Positions 12,480 to 21,157 of a stretch of DNA of 35,112 nucleotides are shown piece after piece. The first letter of the stretch is position 1, and every line of letters starts with the position of its first letter. The translations under genes were made by a program, and so were the position numbers. Under the pieces are notes generated by a model, which had not been told where the DNA came from, did not search any database, and saw only the letters and a program-made list of their open reading frames with translations. The stretch is from Lachnospiraceae bacterium. Lineage in GTDB: Bacteria > Bacillota > Clostridia > Lachnospirales > Lachnospiraceae. The stretch is from the NCBI GenBank assembly GCA_017446045.1, contig JAFSRP010000054.1:94852-129963 (forward strand), written 5' to 3'.

Positions 12480-13694
12480 ATGAATTTTGTGTTTATTTCT
12501 CCCAACTTCCCATCTTCTTATGAACATTTTTGCATTGATCTTCGCGAAAACGGCGTCAATGTCCTGGGGATCGGGGATGCTCCGTATGACTCACTGACGG
12601 ATTCTCTCAAAGCCGCACTTACTGAATACTACCGTGTCGACAGTCTGAAAAACTACGATCAGATGATCCGCGCCATGGGACATTTCACTGCCAGTTACGG
12701 CAAGATCGACTGGGTCGAGTCCAACAATGAATACTGGATGGAACTGGATGCCGCGCTTCGTACGGATTTCAATATCCAGTCCGGTCTCAAATCCGACCAG
12801 ATCATGCGTTTCCGTTCCAAGTCCACTATGAAAAAATACTATAAAAAAGCCGGTGTTCCTACGGCGCGCTGTCTGCTGGTCACAGATATCGAATCCGCAG
12901 AGGCATTTATCGGGGAAGTCGGTTATCCCGTCATCGTCAAGCCTGACCGCGGCGTCGGTTCTGAGGCTACCTGGAGACTGGAAAATGATGAAGACCTGCG
13001 TGAGTTTTTCCATGCGCTTCCGGAGATCCCCTATGTCATGGAAGAGTATATTTCAGGAATCGTAGAGACCTATGACGGCGTGATCAATTCAAAGGGTGAG
13101 GTGCTGTTTGCCGCAAGCCATATTTCCCCCAACTCCATCATGGATATGGTCAACGAAGGGATCCCGTGTTATTACTACGTTAACAAACAGGTCGCACCGG
13201 ATATCGAGAAAGCCGGCAAAAAAGTTCTGAAAGCATTTGATGTACGCTGCCGTTTCTTCCATCTGGAGTTCTTCAGGCTGACAAAAGATATTCCCGGAAT
13301 CGGAAAGAAAGGCACCGTTGCCGGGCTGGAAGTCAATATGCGGCCTGCCGGCGGCTTTACCACGGATATGATCAATTTCAGTCAGAGCTCCGATGTCTTC
13401 AGGATCTGGGCTGACATGATCGCGTTTGACGAATCCAGGCACACATTCTCCGGTCCCCAGCGCTACTGTGTCTACTGCGGGCGCCGCGACGAGAACAGCT
13501 ATACCATCCCGGATGAAGAGCTGATCGCTGATTACAAGGATGCTCTGTCGCTCACGACCCGCATGCCGGACGCCCTTTCGGGAGTCATGGGCAATCGTGT
13601 GTTTATCGGCTGTTTTGATACTCTGAAGGAAATGAACACCTTTGTACGTGATTCATTCAGTCCTTCTCCTTATGTTCCGGAAACGGAATCATAA
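12480..13694 (+). CDS. ATP-grasp domain protein (carboxylate-amine/thiol ligase-like), substrate unknown
   Basis: This 404-residue cytosolic protein has an N-terminal Rossmann-like domain (1-95), a middle subdomain, and an ATP-grasp fold with the ATP-binding Lys in VIVKPDRGVGS (K154) followed by its glycine loop. The magnesium-binding residues are recognisable in EVNMRPAGG (E284, N286, R288). This class ligates a carboxylate to an amine or another nucleophile via an acylphosphate, as in CarB, BacD and D-Ala ligases. The C-terminal 80 residues (about 320-404), with a CVYCG motif, are not a part I recognise. It is a single-gene unit, divergent from pyrH, with its own promoter and terminator, so gene context gives no substrate clue. 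Confidence 0.75.
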   Translation: MNFVFISPNFPSSYEHFCIDLRENGVNVLGIGDAPYDSLTDSLKAALTEYYRVDSLKNYDQMIRAMGHFTASYGKIDWVESNNEYWMELDAALRTDFNIQSGLKSDQIMRFRSKSTMKKYYKKAGVPTARCLLVTDIESAEAFIGEVGYPVIVKPDRGVGSEATWRLENDEDLREFFHALPEIPYVMEEYISGIVETYDGVINSKGEVLFAASHISPNSIMDMVNEGIPCYYYVNKQVAPDIEKAGKKVLKAFDVRCRFFHLEFFRLTKDIPGIGKKGTVAGLEVNMRPAGGFTTDMINFSQSSDVFRIWADMIAFDESRHTFSGPQRYCVYCGRRDENSYTIPDEELIADYKDALSLTTRMPDALSGVMGNRVFIGCFDTLKEMNTFVRDSFSPSPYVPETES

Positions 13695-13763: not shown

Positions 13764-16493
13764 TTATGTTTCCGGAAGGACGATTCGGTTCCCGATCCCG
13801 GTCCGGCGGGATACAAACCTCGCAAGTATATCCCTGCTGCAGTTCTCCACATCCTCTTTCAGTTCCCGTGCCGACATGCGTACCGCACCTTCTCCGAAAA
13901 CGATGGTCTGTTCGAGACCGTCCGAAGTCGCCACCGTGACCCGGTGATGCCGCGCTATTTCATGGACCGCCGCTTCAATATAAGCATCTGCAGTCTGGGC
14001 TTCTTTTGTATAAACGATGTAAATATTGTGATATTGCTCTACAGCACCCTGCCCGCCTCTCACCTTGTAAGCATCGAATACAAGAATAAGTGTCATGCCG
14101 CGGTATCCCTGATAATTGGCCAGGATGTCCGCCAGTGCTGTCCTGGCTGCGTCTATGCTGACGTCAGCCAGCTCTTTCAGCTCATCCCACGCGAAAATAA
14201 TATTGTAGCCATCAACAAGTAGATAAGACTCCGGGGGCTCCGGGATCTTCACCTCTGCCATCTTTGGTGCAGAACGCATGCGTCCCGGCCGACGTTCATC
14301 CCGTTCTGCCAGTTTCTTCAGGTTTCTGTTGTTCCCGAGCGTACGGTTAAAGATCGCTTCAAGCTCACGATCCGCCGCCAACCCCGCACCGAGAAGATCA
14401 CCGCTTTGGGTCTTCACGGATGCAGTACCGGATATCCGGCCGGACCCGGCCGGATCCGGCTGACTATCTGAGTGAAGAGTACCTGTCCCCTGCCCCTGAA
14501 CAAAAGGCAGATGCATCATCTCATCAGCTTCATCCCAGGGAACGTAGTATCCCGCACCATGAGAACAGAATACAGAACCGGATGGGTTGTCAGGATCAAG
14601 CTCGGGATCATAATCCGTCTCCGCCAGCACTGCTTCCGGATCGGTACAGTCGCCGTAGCCTCCGAAGGAGCACTGCAGATGCCCAAATCCGCCCGTATAA
14701 CTGCGCACCACTGCCTCGTATCCCTGCATCCGTGTCACAGACGCCCGTCCGTAAAAACAAACCTCCTCGCCGTTTGGAACCGGTCCGGTAAACTCTTCCG
14801 CGATCCGTCCGAGATCTGTCATTGCCCGTCCTGCTGCAGAAGGCGGCACACATAGTTCAAAATCATAATATGGCTCCAGCAGGATACAGTGCCCCTCCGC
14901 CCGGGCCTTCATCAGGCCCTGCCGGACAGCACGGTAGACCGCCTGCCTGAAATCGCCTCCTTCGGTATGCTTTGCATGTGCTCTCGCATTCACCAGGCAT
15001 ATCCGCACATCCGTCAATGCCGCGCCGGTCAGAACACCGGTATGAGATTTTTCCGCAGCGTTGGTCAGGATCAGCCTCTGAAAATGACGGGGCAGAACAT
15101 CCTCGCTGAGAGCGGATGCATATTCCATTCCACTGCCCCGCTCAAGGGGCTCCAGGATAAAATGCACCTCCGCATAGTGCCTGAGAGGCTCATAATGTCC
15201 GGTACAGTAGACCGGCTCCGTGATGGTCTCCTGATAAACGACGGATGCAGGCGCAAAAGATACATCCACAGAAAAACGTCTGCGGAGGATCTCCTGCAGC
15301 ACATCGGTCTGAACCTCGCCCATCAGCTGACAGCGGACCTCTCCCCTTGCGGCTATGAAATCGATCCGGATCTCCGGGATCTCCTCTTCCAGCTCCCTGC
15401 AGATCTGGTAAAGACGGTGTATATCCATACCCTCCGGCGGAATGATCCTGGAAGAAAACAAAGGCACGAGCAGCGGGTGTCTGCCGGCAGGCGGCTGACC
15501 GAGAGAACCTCCCGCCCTGGTCACCGCTGGTCCGCGCAATACCACGACCATCCCTGCCTCTGCTTCCTGAATCTGCTCGAAATGCTCGCCGGAGCATCGC
15601 AGGATCTGATCTACCTTTTCCTCGACAGGCTCACTGCCGGCGCCGGGCATATAGACCCTCACGGTATCCTTTGTCTTTAAACGTCCTCCGGTAAGGCGGA
15701 TATGTGTCAGGCGGCTGCCGCGGCTGTCCCGTGAGATCTTGAAGATACGGGCTGAGAAGATATCAGGAAGATCCGGTTCCCGGGTATACGCTGTAAGGAC
15801 TTTGATAAACTCATCAACGCCCTCATCCCTCAGTGCGGAACCGAAACAGCAGGGGCAGAGCCTGCGCTCTCTGACCAGCCTGCATATCTCTTCCTCCGGT
15901 ATCTCTCCGGTCTCGAGATACAGCTCTGTAAGCCTGTCATCCTTTACCGCGATCTCCTCAAGAAGTGCTGCGCGTTCCTCCCCATCCGTGTCCCCGATGC
16001 TGAGAGCTGTAAAGTCCACAAACCGGTCGCCGAACCGTCCGCGCAGCTCCGCAAGGACTCTATGCCTGTCCGCGCCTGCCTGATCCATCTTATTGACAAA
16101 GACGAAGACCGGTATCTCATAGATCTCAAAAAGTTTCCACAGCGTAATGTCATGTCCGTGTACGCCATCCGTCGCACTGATGATCAGCACAGCGTAATCC
16201 AGTACGGATAATGTCCGCTCCATCTCGGCAGAGAAATCCGCATGTCCCGGCGTATCCAGCAATGTAAAGGTCCTTATGCCCTCCCTTGCCGGGAAGGAGA
16301 CTTCTGCCTGTTTGGAAAAGATCGTAATGCCCCGTTCACGTTCTTCGGCTGCACTGTCAAAAAAGCTGTCCCCGTGGTCCACGCGGCCAGCCTTTCTTAT
16401 CACTCCGCCATGCAGCAGAATGCTCTCGGATAAAGTTGTCTTCCCGGCATCTACATGAGCTGTCAGTGCCAGACATACATTGGAACTCTTCAT
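13764..16493 (-). CDS. TetM/EF-G-like ribosomal GTPase fused to a C-terminal NYN (Rae1/YacP-like) nuclease domain
   Basis: The 909-residue protein is a two-part fusion. Residues about 1-650 resemble ribosomal protection proteins of the TetM/EF-G type: P-loop AHVDAGKTT, switch I ERERGITI, DTPGHADF, VNKMDQAG, then domains II-V ending with the TetM-like YTGGFG and GY segment. After a Pro/Asp/Ser-rich linker (about 650-750) comes an NYN domain (751-909) like B. subtilis Rae1/YacP, an mRNA endonuclease acting in the ribosomal A site. It has LLVDGYN (D761), VFDAYK (D807), TADAYIE (D836), ATSDGLEQ (D858) and GAVRMSARELKEDV. The inference is a GTPase that delivers a nuclease to the ribosome. I chose the ATG at 16493 because it begins just before the P-loop and after the gpsA stop. 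A GTG at 16523 is also possible. It ends the pgeF-gpsA operon. Confidence 0.88.
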   Translation of the reverse strand: MKSSNVCLALTAHVDAGKTTLSESILLHGGVIRKAGRVDHGDSFFDSAAEERERGITIFSKQAEVSFPAREGIRTFTLLDTPGHADFSAEMERTLSVLDYAVLIISATDGVHGHDITLWKLFEIYEIPVFVFVNKMDQAGADRHRVLAELRGRFGDRFVDFTALSIGDTDGEERAALLEEIAVKDDRLTELYLETGEIPEEEICRLVRERRLCPCCFGSALRDEGVDEFIKVLTAYTREPDLPDIFSARIFKISRDSRGSRLTHIRLTGGRLKTKDTVRVYMPGAGSEPVEEKVDQILRCSGEHFEQIQEAEAGMVVVLRGPAVTRAGGSLGQPPAGRHPLLVPLFSSRIIPPEGMDIHRLYQICRELEEEIPEIRIDFIAARGEVRCQLMGEVQTDVLQEILRRRFSVDVSFAPASVVYQETITEPVYCTGHYEPLRHYAEVHFILEPLERGSGMEYASALSEDVLPRHFQRLILTNAAEKSHTGVLTGAALTDVRICLVNARAHAKHTEGGDFRQAVYRAVRQGLMKARAEGHCILLEPYYDFELCVPPSAAGRAMTDLGRIAEEFTGPVPNGEEVCFYGRASVTRMQGYEAVVRSYTGGFGHLQCSFGGYGDCTDPEAVLAETDYDPELDPDNPSGSVFCSHGAGYYVPWDEADEMMHLPFVQGQGTGTLHSDSQPDPAGSGRISGTASVKTQSGDLLGAGLAADRELEAIFNRTLGNNRNLKKLAERDERRPGRMRSAPKMAEVKIPEPPESYLLVDGYNIIFAWDELKELADVSIDAARTALADILANYQGYRGMTLILVFDAYKVRGGQGAVEQYHNIYIVYTKEAQTADAYIEAAVHEIARHHRVTVATSDGLEQTIVFGEGAVRMSARELKEDVENCSRDILARFVSRRTGIGNRIVLPET

Positions 16494-16513: not shown

Positions 16514-17518
16514 TTAACCCCACTCGTCTTTTGTATCGCGGAGCATCAGGTCATGCACCGTCCTGCGCGGATCCGCGCCGTGGTTGACGACAGCATCAAC
16601 AGCAAAAATGATCGGCAGCTCGATATGATAGAGGTCCGCCATCTTCAGGGCAGCAGGGATCGCAAAAATTCCTTCTACAACCATGCCGACTTCCCTGACA
16701 GCTTCCTCGGCTGTTTTGCCCTGACCCATGAGCATGCCTGCCCGGTTGTTGCGGGAATGCATGCTGGTCGCCGTAACGATCAGGTCCCCTACGCCCGCCA
16801 GCCCGGCGAACGTCTCCTGCCGGCAACCCATCGCAGTTCCCAGACGGGTGATCTCCGCCAGCCCGCGTGTGATCAGTGCCGCGCGGGTATTGTCCCCATA
16901 GCCAAGGCCGGAACAGATGCCGGATGCCAGCGCGATGATATTTTTGAAAGCACCGCAAAGCTGTATCCCCCGGATATCATCGTTGGTATACACCCGCATG
17001 TTGTCATTGGTAAAGACCTTCTGGACCTCCTTCGCAGCATCCATATCCCTGGATGCGGCTACGATCGTCGTCGGAAGGTCCACAGCGACCTCCTCCGCAT
17101 GGGTCGGTCCGCTCAAAGCCACCACCCGGGCAGAATGTCCGGCCTTGCCAAGCTCATCTTCGATGACCTCGGTCAGCGTCATTACGGTCTCGGCCTCTAT
17201 GCCCTTGCCGACATTAACAATGATCTGTCCTTCCTTTACATTGGGCGCAGCCTTTTTTGCCACGGACCTGAGAAAATTGGAAGGGATAGCTACCAGCAGG
17301 ATATCCTTATCCCTACAGACCTCTGTAATATCCTTGGTGAAGCTGATCGCGTCCGGGATCACCATCCCGGGAAGGTTAGGATGGCGCCGGGTCACAGAGT
17401 ACTCATCGATCTCTTTCTCCAATGCGGACCACACCTGAACATCATTTCCGGTATTGGAAAGCATGCGTGCCAGTGCCATGCCCCAGGTGCCGGCACCCAA
17501 TACTCCTATCTTACTCAT
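16514..17518 (-). CDS. gpsA: NAD(P)-dependent glycerol-3-phosphate dehydrogenase
   Basis: GpsA reduces dihydroxyacetone phosphate to sn-glycerol 3-phosphate, the backbone for phospholipids and teichoic acids. The 334 residues show the NAD(P)-binding GAGTWG at 8-13, VGKGIE (about 103-108), LSGPTHAEEV, the catalytic-Lys region CGAFKNIIALASG and the GVGDLIVTATSMHSRN signature. The start is well supported by TAGGAGGT 7 nt upstream of the ATG. It follows the YwaF-like gene by 26 bp and is followed after about 20 bp by the GTPase-NYN gene. Confidence 0.96.
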   Translation of the reverse strand: MSKIGVLGAGTWGMALARMLSNTGNDVQVWSALEKEIDEYSVTRRHPNLPGMVIPDAISFTKDITEVCRDKDILLVAIPSNFLRSVAKKAAPNVKEGQIIVNVGKGIEAETVMTLTEVIEDELGKAGHSARVVALSGPTHAEEVAVDLPTTIVAASRDMDAAKEVQKVFTNDNMRVYTNDDIRGIQLCGAFKNIIALASGICSGLGYGDNTRAALITRGLAEITRLGTAMGCRQETFAGLAGVGDLIVTATSMHSRNNRAGMLMGQGKTAEEAVREVGMVVEGIFAIPAALKMADLYHIELPIIFAVDAVVNHGADPRRTVHDLMLRDTKDEWG

Positions 17519-17544: not shown

Positions 17545-18168
17545 TTATCTTTGATGAACGGATCGGAACCAGAACAAATGAAACAACGAGGCTCCGAATA
17601 CCGTTGCCAGAATATACAGTCCGATCACTGCCCGGTTCGGCAAAAACCGCAGGAGCTCCCGAAAACCGATCTGCCCCATGTAGTAATGCGGGTTGATGTA
17701 AAACATATTGATGATATCGAAACGATCGAAACTTAAATTGAAAGCTTCGGCAAGGATACAACACACCAAATAGACTGCTGTCGCTCCAATAAAGCTTCGC
17801 ATTCCCCGGTCTCTCTTCCTCGTACCTGCATACATTCCCAGCGCGATCAGCAGGAAATGCCACAAAAAAGAGTGTATAGTCAGCGGCATATAACCATAAT
17901 GCATCCCGGTCGTATCAAGAAATACGATCACGCCCGACAAAAGAGTATAATCCGACAAAAATGCCAACAGACTGTCCCGGATCTTTCCTCCTTTAATAAA
18001 TGCCAGAGGAAGGCAAAGATACATAGGAACGGAACACAGCTGAAAGGGGAAATACCACCACTGATATGTACCGCCATTCAATACAAAAGTCAGGCAGTAC
18101 TGCTTCCATATCTCGCTCACCAGCAGTACTGTCCCCGTGATCAAAAAAACTCTCTGTTCCCTGCTCAT
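17545..18168 (-). CDS. YwaF/TMEM164-like integral membrane protein
   Basis: This 207-residue polytopic membrane protein has about six to seven hydrophobic segments. It resembles the TIGR02206/YwaF family, related to eukaryotic TMEM164, in having the FPFQLCSVPMYLCLPLA block with a conserved Cys (C45) and His residues in the HSFLWH segment (H99, H104). In TMEM164 the Cys and a His are proposed acyl-transfer residues. Applying that to this protein is only an inference. Its ATG overlaps the pgeF stop by 4 nt, and it precedes gpsA, so a membrane-lipid role would fit. No bacterial function can be read from sequence alone. Confidence 0.65.
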   Translation of the reverse strand: MSREQRVFLITGTVLLVSEIWKQYCLTFVLNGGTYQWWYFPFQLCSVPMYLCLPLAFIKGGKIRDSLLAFLSDYTLLSGVIVFLDTTGMHYGYMPLTIHSFLWHFLLIALGMYAGTRKRDRGMRSFIGATAVYLVCCILAEAFNLSFDRFDIINMFYINPHYYMGQIGFRELLRFLPNRAVIGLYILATVFGASLFHLFWFRSVHQR

Positions 18169-19558: not shown

Positions 19559-21157
19559 TCAGGCAAGATTCTTCTTCAGCGTAAGAATATTGGTGCCGTA
19601 CTCATAGGTATACTTGACTTCATCCATGGTCTGTTTGACCAGAAAGATGCCCAGTCCTCCGACCCCTCTCTCCTCGGCAGGCAGATTCACATTCGGGTCC
19701 TTTTTCTCAAGGGGATCGAAGGGCTCCCCGTTATCCATGAAAGTCAGCATGACAGTCAGCGGATCTTCCGTCGTTTCCACGCGGACCGTGGCTCTGCCCA
19801 CTTCCTTTTTATGCGCATAGGCATAGCATGCAATATTGATGAAGATCTCCTCCACCGCCATGTCGATCTGCATACGGGCCTTCGGGCTGCATTTGGTCGT
19901 TTCCAGACACTTTCCCACATATTCCAGGACGGTATTCAGGTTTTCTTTGACCGCATCCACTTCCAGCTCATTGACGGTAAACAGCAGTGTGTCATACTGA
20001 CCGATCAGCTCGATGAGTTCCTTCTTCCAGTGGTCGATATGTCTCCTGCCGTCTTCGGTCTCCAGTCCTTTGCGGCGGATCAGCCGGCGGATCATCCGGG
20101 TGTAGCCTATGATACGGGCTTTGTTTTCTACATCCCGGACTGCTTTTTCATCATGGGTCCCGAGATACAGGGGAAGCGCCTTTTTCCAGAATTCCTGTGC
20201 CAGCTCCCAGTCAAAGCCCTGGAACTCTTTGAAGGATGCATGATCCAGCTCGGAAAAACCGACAAAAGCATTAAAGATAGAACCCAGTTCAAAGATCGGA
20301 TGCCCCACGGCCAGCGTATCCATATCGATGAGCAGCACTTCATCATTCTGAAGCTCGAGGTTCTTGGTATGATAATCACCGTGGATCATATGATCGTCAT
20401 GCGGCACTGCCTCGACCAGCGCAAGGAGTTTCTTTCCTTCCGCTTCCGGAAGGTAGTCCTGCATAAACCGGGCCCAGCCGATCACGGTCTCCCTCATATC
20501 CGGCAATTCACCCGGTCCCACGACTGTACTGTGGATCTTGCGAAGAAGCCTGACATACTCATGGACACACCAGTCGAGTTTCTCCGGTTCATTTGCCAGA
20601 ACATTGGAAAAAGACCTGGCATTCAGCAGTTCAAAAACAGAACCATAACTGTCGCCGATCCGTACTACATCATAGGAGATCGCTGTGGGAATGCCCAAAA
20701 CGAGGGCAAGGCGTGCCACCTCACGCTCATGCTGGATATCTTCCAGCGCATCAGCGTTGTTGTACACCTTGACCACATTATCGCTGTCGATGCGGTAAAG
20801 CGTCCCGTTTGCGCCCTTTCCGATGATCTGGCAGCCTTCGACAGATACGCGGCGATAAGCCTTTTTCACCTGCATCATCTCAGTAAAACCGGTCATCTCC
20901 AGCACTTCGTATACCTCCGGCCGGACATTGATGATCGAAAGATCCTTATGCTCTTTCCTGAAATGCAGAATGATCCGCAGACCGGCACTGGAAATATACT
21001 CAAGTCCTTCGGCGTCGATCACCAGCGGCCCGTTTCCGGCGTCGCGGATCAGCTGCGCTGCTTCTGTCTCCACAGCGGGCGCATTGTTGGAATCGATCCT
21101 TCCCCGCAGCTCCAGCACGATACTGTCATTCGTTTTCTTTACACTTACATTATCCAT
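19559..21157 (-). CDS. Three-domain partner-switching protein: STAS - APH-type kinase - HATPase_c (RsbW-like)
   Basis: The 532-residue protein joins three complete modules. Residues 1-97 are a STAS anti-anti-sigma domain with the phosphorylatable serine region EYISSAGLRIIL (S56/S57). Residues about 105-375 are an aminoglycoside/choline-kinase-like (APH) domain with IGKGANGTLYRI, the catalytic HGDYHTKN (H259, D261, N266) and IDMD (D278, D280). Residues about 395-532 are a GHKL ATPase of the RsbW/SpoIIAB type with the N-box EEIFIN (E436, N441), DNG (D475, G477) and GVGGLG (498-503). It thus carries antagonist and kinase functions of a partner-switching pair in one chain, plus a possible small-molecule kinase. 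It follows the stand-alone STAS gene by 26 bp with a GGAAGGGG ribosome-binding site. Whether the APH domain phosphorylates a sugar, a lipid or a protein is unknown. Confidence 0.9.
   Translation of the reverse strand: MDNVSVKKTNDSIVLELRGRIDSNNAPAVETEAAQLIRDAGNGPLVIDAEGLEYISSAGLRIILHFRKEHKDLSIINVRPEVYEVLEMTGFTEMMQVKKAYRRVSVEGCQIIGKGANGTLYRIDSDNVVKVYNNADALEDIQHEREVARLALVLGIPTAISYDVVRIGDSYGSVFELLNARSFSNVLANEPEKLDWCVHEYVRLLRKIHSTVVGPGELPDMRETVIGWARFMQDYLPEAEGKKLLALVEAVPHDDHMIHGDYHTKNLELQNDEVLLIDMDTLAVGHPIFELGSIFNAFVGFSELDHASFKEFQGFDWELAQEFWKKALPLYLGTHDEKAVRDVENKARIIGYTRMIRRLIRRKGLETEDGRRHIDHWKKELIELIGQYDTLLFTVNELEVDAVKENLNTVLEYVGKCLETTKCSPKARMQIDMAVEEIFINIACYAYAHKKEVGRATVRVETTEDPLTVMLTFMDNGEPFDPLEKKDPNVNLPAEERGVGGLGIFLVKQTMDEVKYTYEYGTNILTLKKNLA

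Follow-up and report, generated by a model that had tools for sequence, protein, structure and literature searches.

The locus described here raises the question of what is gained by a protein that carries, in a single chain, a translational GTPase and a nuclease domain of the Rae1 type. The gene lies in a stretch of 35,112 nucleotides from a Lachnospiraceae bacterium (assembly GCA_017446045.1, contig JAFSRP010000054.1, positions 94,852-129,963, forward strand), referred to below as the window, where it occupies positions 13764..16493 on the minus strand as a single open reading frame (ORF) of 909 amino acids without internal stop. The start is an ATG at 16493, and an alternative GTG at 16523 would give a protein of 919 amino acids. 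The fusion is real and widespread in sampled Clostridia, a point on which the first-pass annotation, made from the letters alone, had asked for a check: chance is excluded because the architecture recurs in 103 of 293 sampled genomes (24 of 74 families), and a frameshift artefact was likewise rejected, given one open frame and recurrence in many genomes. The favored reading, to which a probability of roughly 0.5 is assigned, is that the protein would be an mRNA endonuclease directed to the ribosome, with its own translational GTPase governing its access there.

The identity of the nuclease half is clear. Its NYN_YacP (Rae1-type) domain (residues 758-890; 13824..14222, minus strand) matches Pfam PF05991 with an E-value of 1.4e-47 and 162.2 bits against a cut-off of 24.6, and the segment matches the YacP structures 5mq8 and 5mq9 with E ~6e-28, the next PDB match having an E-value of 0.44. 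A complete NYN domain with four conserved aspartates had been proposed for residues 751-909, and this proposal held: in the 5mq9 alignment, D761, D807, D836 and D858 align with D7, D53, D81 and D104 of Rae1, positions which we take to be the catalytic residues of the Rae1/YacP NYN domain. All four are invariant in the NYN rows examined, of which 73 are of fused type and 28 stand-alone. The fused-type set takes in L172, L193 and L052, where the GTPase and NYN parts are not in the same frame, as well as L053, a 680-residue frame whose GTPase match covers only residues 4-413. When 68 fusions were compared with the window protein, 66 showed higher conservation in the NYN half than in the GTPase half. 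In Bacillus subtilis, Rae1 is a stand-alone protein; it is a short single-domain chain of 181 residues with no GTPase attached, unlike the fusion, although the two NYN domains are alike and have the four acidic positions in common. The B. subtilis protein has been described as a ribosomal A-site endoribonuclease that cleaves mRNA (PMC6613710, PMC12320835).

The GTPase half has the features of an EF2-type factor, with the G-domain motifs, including the histidine of DTPGH, and domains II, IV and V. All of its parts are on the minus strand: the G domain (residues 8-237; 15783..16472; Pfam GTP_EFTU, E 4.8e-45; motifs AHVDAGKTT, RGITI, DTPGH, NKMD and GSAL), domain II (246-331; 15501..15758; EF-G_D2, E 5.6e-07), domain III (344-413; 15255..15464; EFG_III, a weak match below cut-off with E 0.0048), domain IV (418-530; 14904..15242; EFG_IV, E 2.5e-17) and domain V (538-617; 14643..14882; EFG_C, E 4.8e-11). 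These are followed by a family-specific C-terminal extension (616-663; 14505..14648) with C616, the segment SVFCSHGAG at 640-648, and H661; among 99 rows of the GTPase family, fused and unfused, C616 is present in 93, C643 in 95 and H661 in 95. The tip of domain IV carries two further family-specific loops, GHYEPLRHYAEV (432-443) and AHAKHTEGGDFR (505-516). Loop 1 reads EPLRHYAE in the family, with H439 and E442 kept in 99 of 99 rows, as against PNPFWAS in rows of the tetracycline protection (Tet) proteins and a glycine-rich loop in EF-G rows. Loop 3 reads AHxKHTEGGDFR, as against YYSPVST...DFR in Tet rows; H506 of the fusion is common to EF-G (6/6 rows), and the residue is Y in Tet (10/10 rows). 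The 71 rows counted as fused for loops and extension include L172 and L193, in which the GTPase and NYN parts are in different frames. Apart from the fusion, the source genome yielded one EFG_IV protein, L002 (C54). Its G-domain motifs are altered (GHGGAGKTT, TNMD), and it reaches 615 bits on the EF-G model TIGR00484, short of the model's cut-off of 659, while passing another EF-G model. No canonical EF-G turned up in this genome, perhaps because the assembly is only 79% complete.

An intact TetM-like GTPase had been claimed for this half. The intact frame, GTPase motifs and EF-G/TetM-type domains stand, but "TetM-like" proved loose. The tetracycline protection model is the best NCBIfam match of the GTPase half, yet the window protein reaches only 349.8 bits on it (tet_protect, NF012153) against a cut-off of 775. 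Four unfused family members (401-442 bits) also fall short, as do two more fusions (423 and 438 bits), whereas the five of ten Tet-clade rows that were scored all pass (L192 1001, L194 819, L196 880, L198 853 and L199 810 bits). In a 50-row tree, fused and unfused members of the GTPase family group together, separately from the Tet rows (support 100/97 and 100/100) and from another uncharacterised group. The same separation appears in the 125-row tree of which those 50 rows are a subset; excluded from this larger tree were duplicates (L001, L003), fragments (L057, L081, L082, L085, L133), rows with short alignments and the majority of EF-G sequences. At the tip of domain IV, 10/10 Tet-clade rows carry the SPV of loop III, as against 0/99 family rows. 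TetM, TetO, TetW, TetQ and OtrA thus have in common with the fusion an EF-G-like translational GTPase, and provide its best-scoring named family, but the fusion falls in a distinct clade below the curated cut-offs, with other tip loops and a C-terminal extension, and the Tet rows examined have no NYN domain. By score and tree position, the GTPase half is near, but outside, the tetracycline protection proteins and constitutes its own family; membership as a plain tetracycline resistance protein, already doubted in the first-pass annotation, was rejected on the same two grounds.

Drug resistance might nevertheless be its function. In an antibiotic response, the reading of Atkinson 2015, the GTPase half would act like TetM in dislodging drug from the A site, with the nuclease supplementing or supplanting that mechanism. 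Tet models are the best NCBIfam matches of this half, and public records sometimes label such genes as TetM/TetW/TetO/TetS family (for example, in Agathobacter rectalis for a fused gene and in Ligilactobacillus salivarius for an unfused one). Pro509 of TetM loop III is reported to touch C1054 (PMC8161019), and TetM with a triple alanine change in loop III is reported to remain active (PMC4750697), so the differing loop does not exclude drug removal and serves as a family marker, with no proof of function. The distance of the scored family members from the Tet cut-off and the separation of the family from the Tet clade argue against this explanation, as do the missing SPV, the presence of gpsA, pyrH and/or frr beside the gene in 10/19 same-genus fused loci, and the Tet-clade gene that some fusion genomes hold as well (G029, G289, G381 and G484; rows L194, L197, L198 and L199). 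We consider it unlikely.

Two further groups of relatives were noted alongside. L210, on a Ligilactobacillus salivarius plasmid, is an unfused relative of the GTPase half with 41% identity and a TetM family label; genes of this type occur on plasmid records of 169-264 kb among the matches listed, and in L210 an rpsN gene is located some 2 kb from the GTPase gene. Another group of TetM-like GTPases stands beside the Tet clade (L083, L084, L086, L152, L153, L189, L190 and L191), coming from Paenibacillus, Synergistota, Flavobacteriaceae and Clostridia, with the domain IV loop PKPCWA among the rows listed; its two scored members lie below the Tet cut-off, at 593 and 606 bits.

The relation of the fusion to free Rae1 carries much of the argument. 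Besides the 103 fusion genomes, the Clostridia sample comprises 19 genomes with an unfused family GTPase and 171 with neither. A NYN_YacP protein of stand-alone size is present in 1/103 fusion genomes (G524, 174 amino acids), 13/19 unfused-GTPase genomes and 73/171 of the remainder, that is, in 1/103 versus 86/190 others (Fisher p 4e-19, kinship ignored). The suggestion that fusion genomes might lack a separate rae1 was therefore well founded, 102/103 having no second PF05991 match over the cut-off, and the fusion seems to take the place of free Rae1 in its genomes. For these counts, a family GTPase was scored at more than 600 bits, with the addition of two partial matches of high score per position (G391, G401); G376 (577 bits), which falls with another group in the tree, was not counted. 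Fused status was set by frame length, with the NYN position not confirmed genome by genome: an open frame of at least 780 amino acids (99 genomes, with a stop inside the match in G309 and G434) or a fusion that a contig end or a change of frame apparently interrupts (G478, G292, G417, G401). The figure of 73 results from 76 NYN genomes without family GTPase after removal of G502 (below cut-off), G429 (451 amino acids) and G525 (342 amino acids). In each of G366, G419 and G452, an ORF of 163-165 amino acids gives a second, sub-threshold PF05991 match (21 bits over 47 positions), which may reflect a distant NYN protein or have arisen by chance.

Within the window's own taxonomic family, 179/200 genomes have a PF05991 match. 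The family GTPase was found in 11/13 genomes with a short NYN ORF (those among the matches listed) and in 0/20 without PF05991 (20 of the 21 such genomes being tested), giving a Fisher p of 4e-07 with kinship ignored. Eight of the 11 have the GTPase as a separate gene on another contig (partial with a stop in G133, partial in G187); the other three (G129, G240, G084) are, from positions only, apparently cut or split fusions, and G031 and G105 have no GTPase. Ten stand-alone NYN rows of this taxonomic family form one NYN clade, so the co-occurrence represents few independent events. Taken together, the comparative evidence suggests that the two halves belong together.

The segment joining them points in the same direction. 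The linker (residues 664-756; 14226..14504, minus strand), between the GTPase extension and the NYN domain, is variable in sequence and spans 63-199 residues across fusions (median 79), but a motif recurs in it: ELxxIFxRTYG followed by basic residues, which 59/69 fusion linkers fit and which is represented in the window protein by ELEAIFNRTLG (residues 710-720; 14334..14366, minus strand). Median distances place it about 31 residues beyond the GTPase tail and 37 ahead of the NYN domain. Shuffled controls gave a mean of 0.4 and a maximum of 3 of 69, a control that ignores the tuning of the motif expression on the same 69 linkers, for which a stricter pattern tried first had matched 37/69. The motif was found in 0/42 tails of GTPase ORFs without NYN, a set that includes fragments and rows outside the family.

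A single fusion event is likely, as all 69 sampled fused rows fall in one GTPase clade (SH-aLRT 100 in the 125-row tree; 100/99 in the 50-row tree, with 16 fused rows). Neither the sister branches of this clade nor any outgroup contain fusions, so the ancestral state looks to be one of separate GTPase and Rae1 genes, although the trees do not settle in which order the three main branches of the GTPase family diverged. The NYN tree, built from 82/101 NYN rows after long-branch, broken and near-duplicate rows were left out, is compatible with a single fusion: a branch (93/75) separates the fused rows plus the stand-alone L035 from the other rows, and a clade of fused rows alone was not rejected (p-AU 0.27).

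In the mechanism proposed here, the GTPase half would bind ribosomes whose A site is vacant or blocked, with domain IV probing the decoding center, and GTP hydrolysis would release it. The tethered NYN domain, on its flexible linker, would then enter the A site of the same or a neighboring ribosome and cut the mRNA there, after which transfer-messenger RNA (tmRNA) could rescue the ribosome; the source genome (2.26 Mb, 79% complete) encodes tmRNA, and its single PF05991 match is the fusion itself. Ribosome binding, the order of events, control by GTP, cleavage and the trigger are all putative, being deduced from comparison of sequences. More tentatively, and with somewhat less confidence than the favored reading itself, the fusion might be a single-polypeptide bacterial counterpart of no-go decay, in which the GTPase samples stalled ribosomes and, by means of GTP hydrolysis and the conserved linker motif, yields the A site to the nuclease fused to it; in many Clostridia the role of mRNA surveillance factor would then fall to the fusion rather than to free Rae1. 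In eukaryotes, Hbs1 and Ski7, with the nuclease Cue2, offer a works-like parallel of translational GTPases coupled to mRNA decay on stalled ribosomes, but there the GTPases are EF1-type rather than EF2-type, the nuclease is unrelated, and the polypeptides are separate.

Several observations weigh against a GTPase-controlled nuclease. The first is steric. Both halves had been said to target the same ribosomal site, and the NYN domain does belong to the Rae1-type A-site family; however, the binding of Tet-type factors overlaps that of EF-G at the A site (PMC8161019), and domain IV and a docked Rae1 would clash, so both halves cannot occupy one A site together. Given the long linker, a hand-over on one ribosome or a cut on its neighbor is the likely arrangement, the halves acting in turn or on neighboring ribosomes. 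Second, the partnership is not obligatory. Rae1 is only marginally commoner with an unfused GTPase (13/19) than without (73/171; p 0.050, kinship ignored), and its wide occurrence in those 73 genomes means that it does not need the GTPase. Conversely, 6/19 unfused-GTPase genomes, over two of three family branches, have no PF05991 match, and three actinobacterial proteins (two from Bifidobacterium, one from Collinsella) nest in the fused clade without NYN, which reads as loss or partial transfer; the GTPase would thus have some use alone. Third, gene neighborhoods lend no help: in the flanks retrieved, fused genes from outside the genus are never accompanied by a neighbor seen in the window, and among 27 loci of unfused relatives no neighbor cluster is common to more than four (in L067, a longer antisense ORF hid the GTPase itself).

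Some of these observations are what would be expected if the halves work separately, with the NYN domain doing the ordinary job of Rae1 and the fusion only setting its amount or its proximity to the ribosome, free of GTP control. Rae1 without the GTPase, the persistence of the GTPase without NYN, and a linker that is long and variable all fit such an arrangement. It accounts less well for the lack of a separate Rae1 in nearly all fusion genomes, the co-occurrence of unfused GTPase and Rae1 genes in the window's taxonomic family, and the recurrent linker motif, and appears improbable, on a par with the antibiotic response. That the protein is instead an RNase for rRNA or tRNA maturation or quality control, with the GTPase recruiting it to ribosomes or their subunits, is more doubtful still, as the activity reported for Rae1 is mRNA cleavage in the A site (PMC6613710, PMC12320835).

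The architecture itself was already known, having been reported by Atkinson 2015 (BMC Genomics 16:78, PMC4342817), which describes Tet proteins of ten clostridial species that acquired a YacP-like NYN domain and puts forward a mechanism of resistance in which RNase activity takes part. The window gene has the same domain architecture and is another member. Where that work deals with ten species, filed under Tet and interpreted as resistance, the present survey finds the fusion in 103/293 genomes and places its family outside the Tet clade. New relative to it are the separate GTPase family, the unfused relatives, the missing separate Rae1 and the failure of the tetracycline label as membership. 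No other publication taking up the fusion was found by title or abstract start among the matches listed, a search whose coverage does not extend to part of the Rae1 literature, including its distribution, and no experimental test of the fusion was found in the literature among the matches listed.

In the window, gpsA (16514..17518, minus strand) lies directly upstream of the fusion gene, with a gap of 20 bases from its stop to the ATG, and the two are possibly co-transcribed; in a scan for promoters and terminators, promoter-like sites were no more numerous than in shuffled sequence. On the other side, an ATP-grasp gene (12480-13694) of opposite orientation separates the fusion gene from pyrH and frr, which are on its own strand. 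At least one of gpsA, pyrH and frr adjoins the fused gene in 10/19 same-genus loci (flanks of at most 1.5 kb, some ended by contig ends), and recent mobile acquisition is not favored in this genus, given that neighborhood. At least 80% of the fusion protein is covered in 2/1051 matching plasmid records, from Agathobacter rectalis (252 kb) and Monoglobus (518 kb), and in 2/113 matching phage records. The unannotated phage records MT835563.1 and MT835514.1 ("Bacteriophage sp.", human faeces), whose matches span 96 and 98% of the fusion, may be bacterial DNA in viromes. Two candidate partners of unfused GTPases were examined and rejected: a conserved neighbor, for which the top cluster reached at most 4/27 loci, and another nuclease in Rae1-less genomes, for which no nuclease family was found in eight neighboring ORFs at four loci (L144, L146, L149 and L150). 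Elsewhere in the window, a 207-residue protein (17545-18168, minus strand), encoded between gpsA and a laccase-domain gene, matches TMEM164 (PF14808, E 4.9e-09), and a 532-residue protein (19559-21157, minus strand) combines STAS, a phosphotransferase-like (APH) stretch and HATPase_c_2 in one chain, a combination that looks unusual.

Genomes in which the family GTPase and Rae1 co-occur as separate genes make their partnership directly testable. If the favored reading is true, some genes now labelled as tetracycline resistance would be something else, which bears on counts of resistance genes. We know of no tested bacterial precedent for a GTPase-coupled nuclease of this layout, and many Clostridia would then control mRNA decay on stalled ribosomes by such means.

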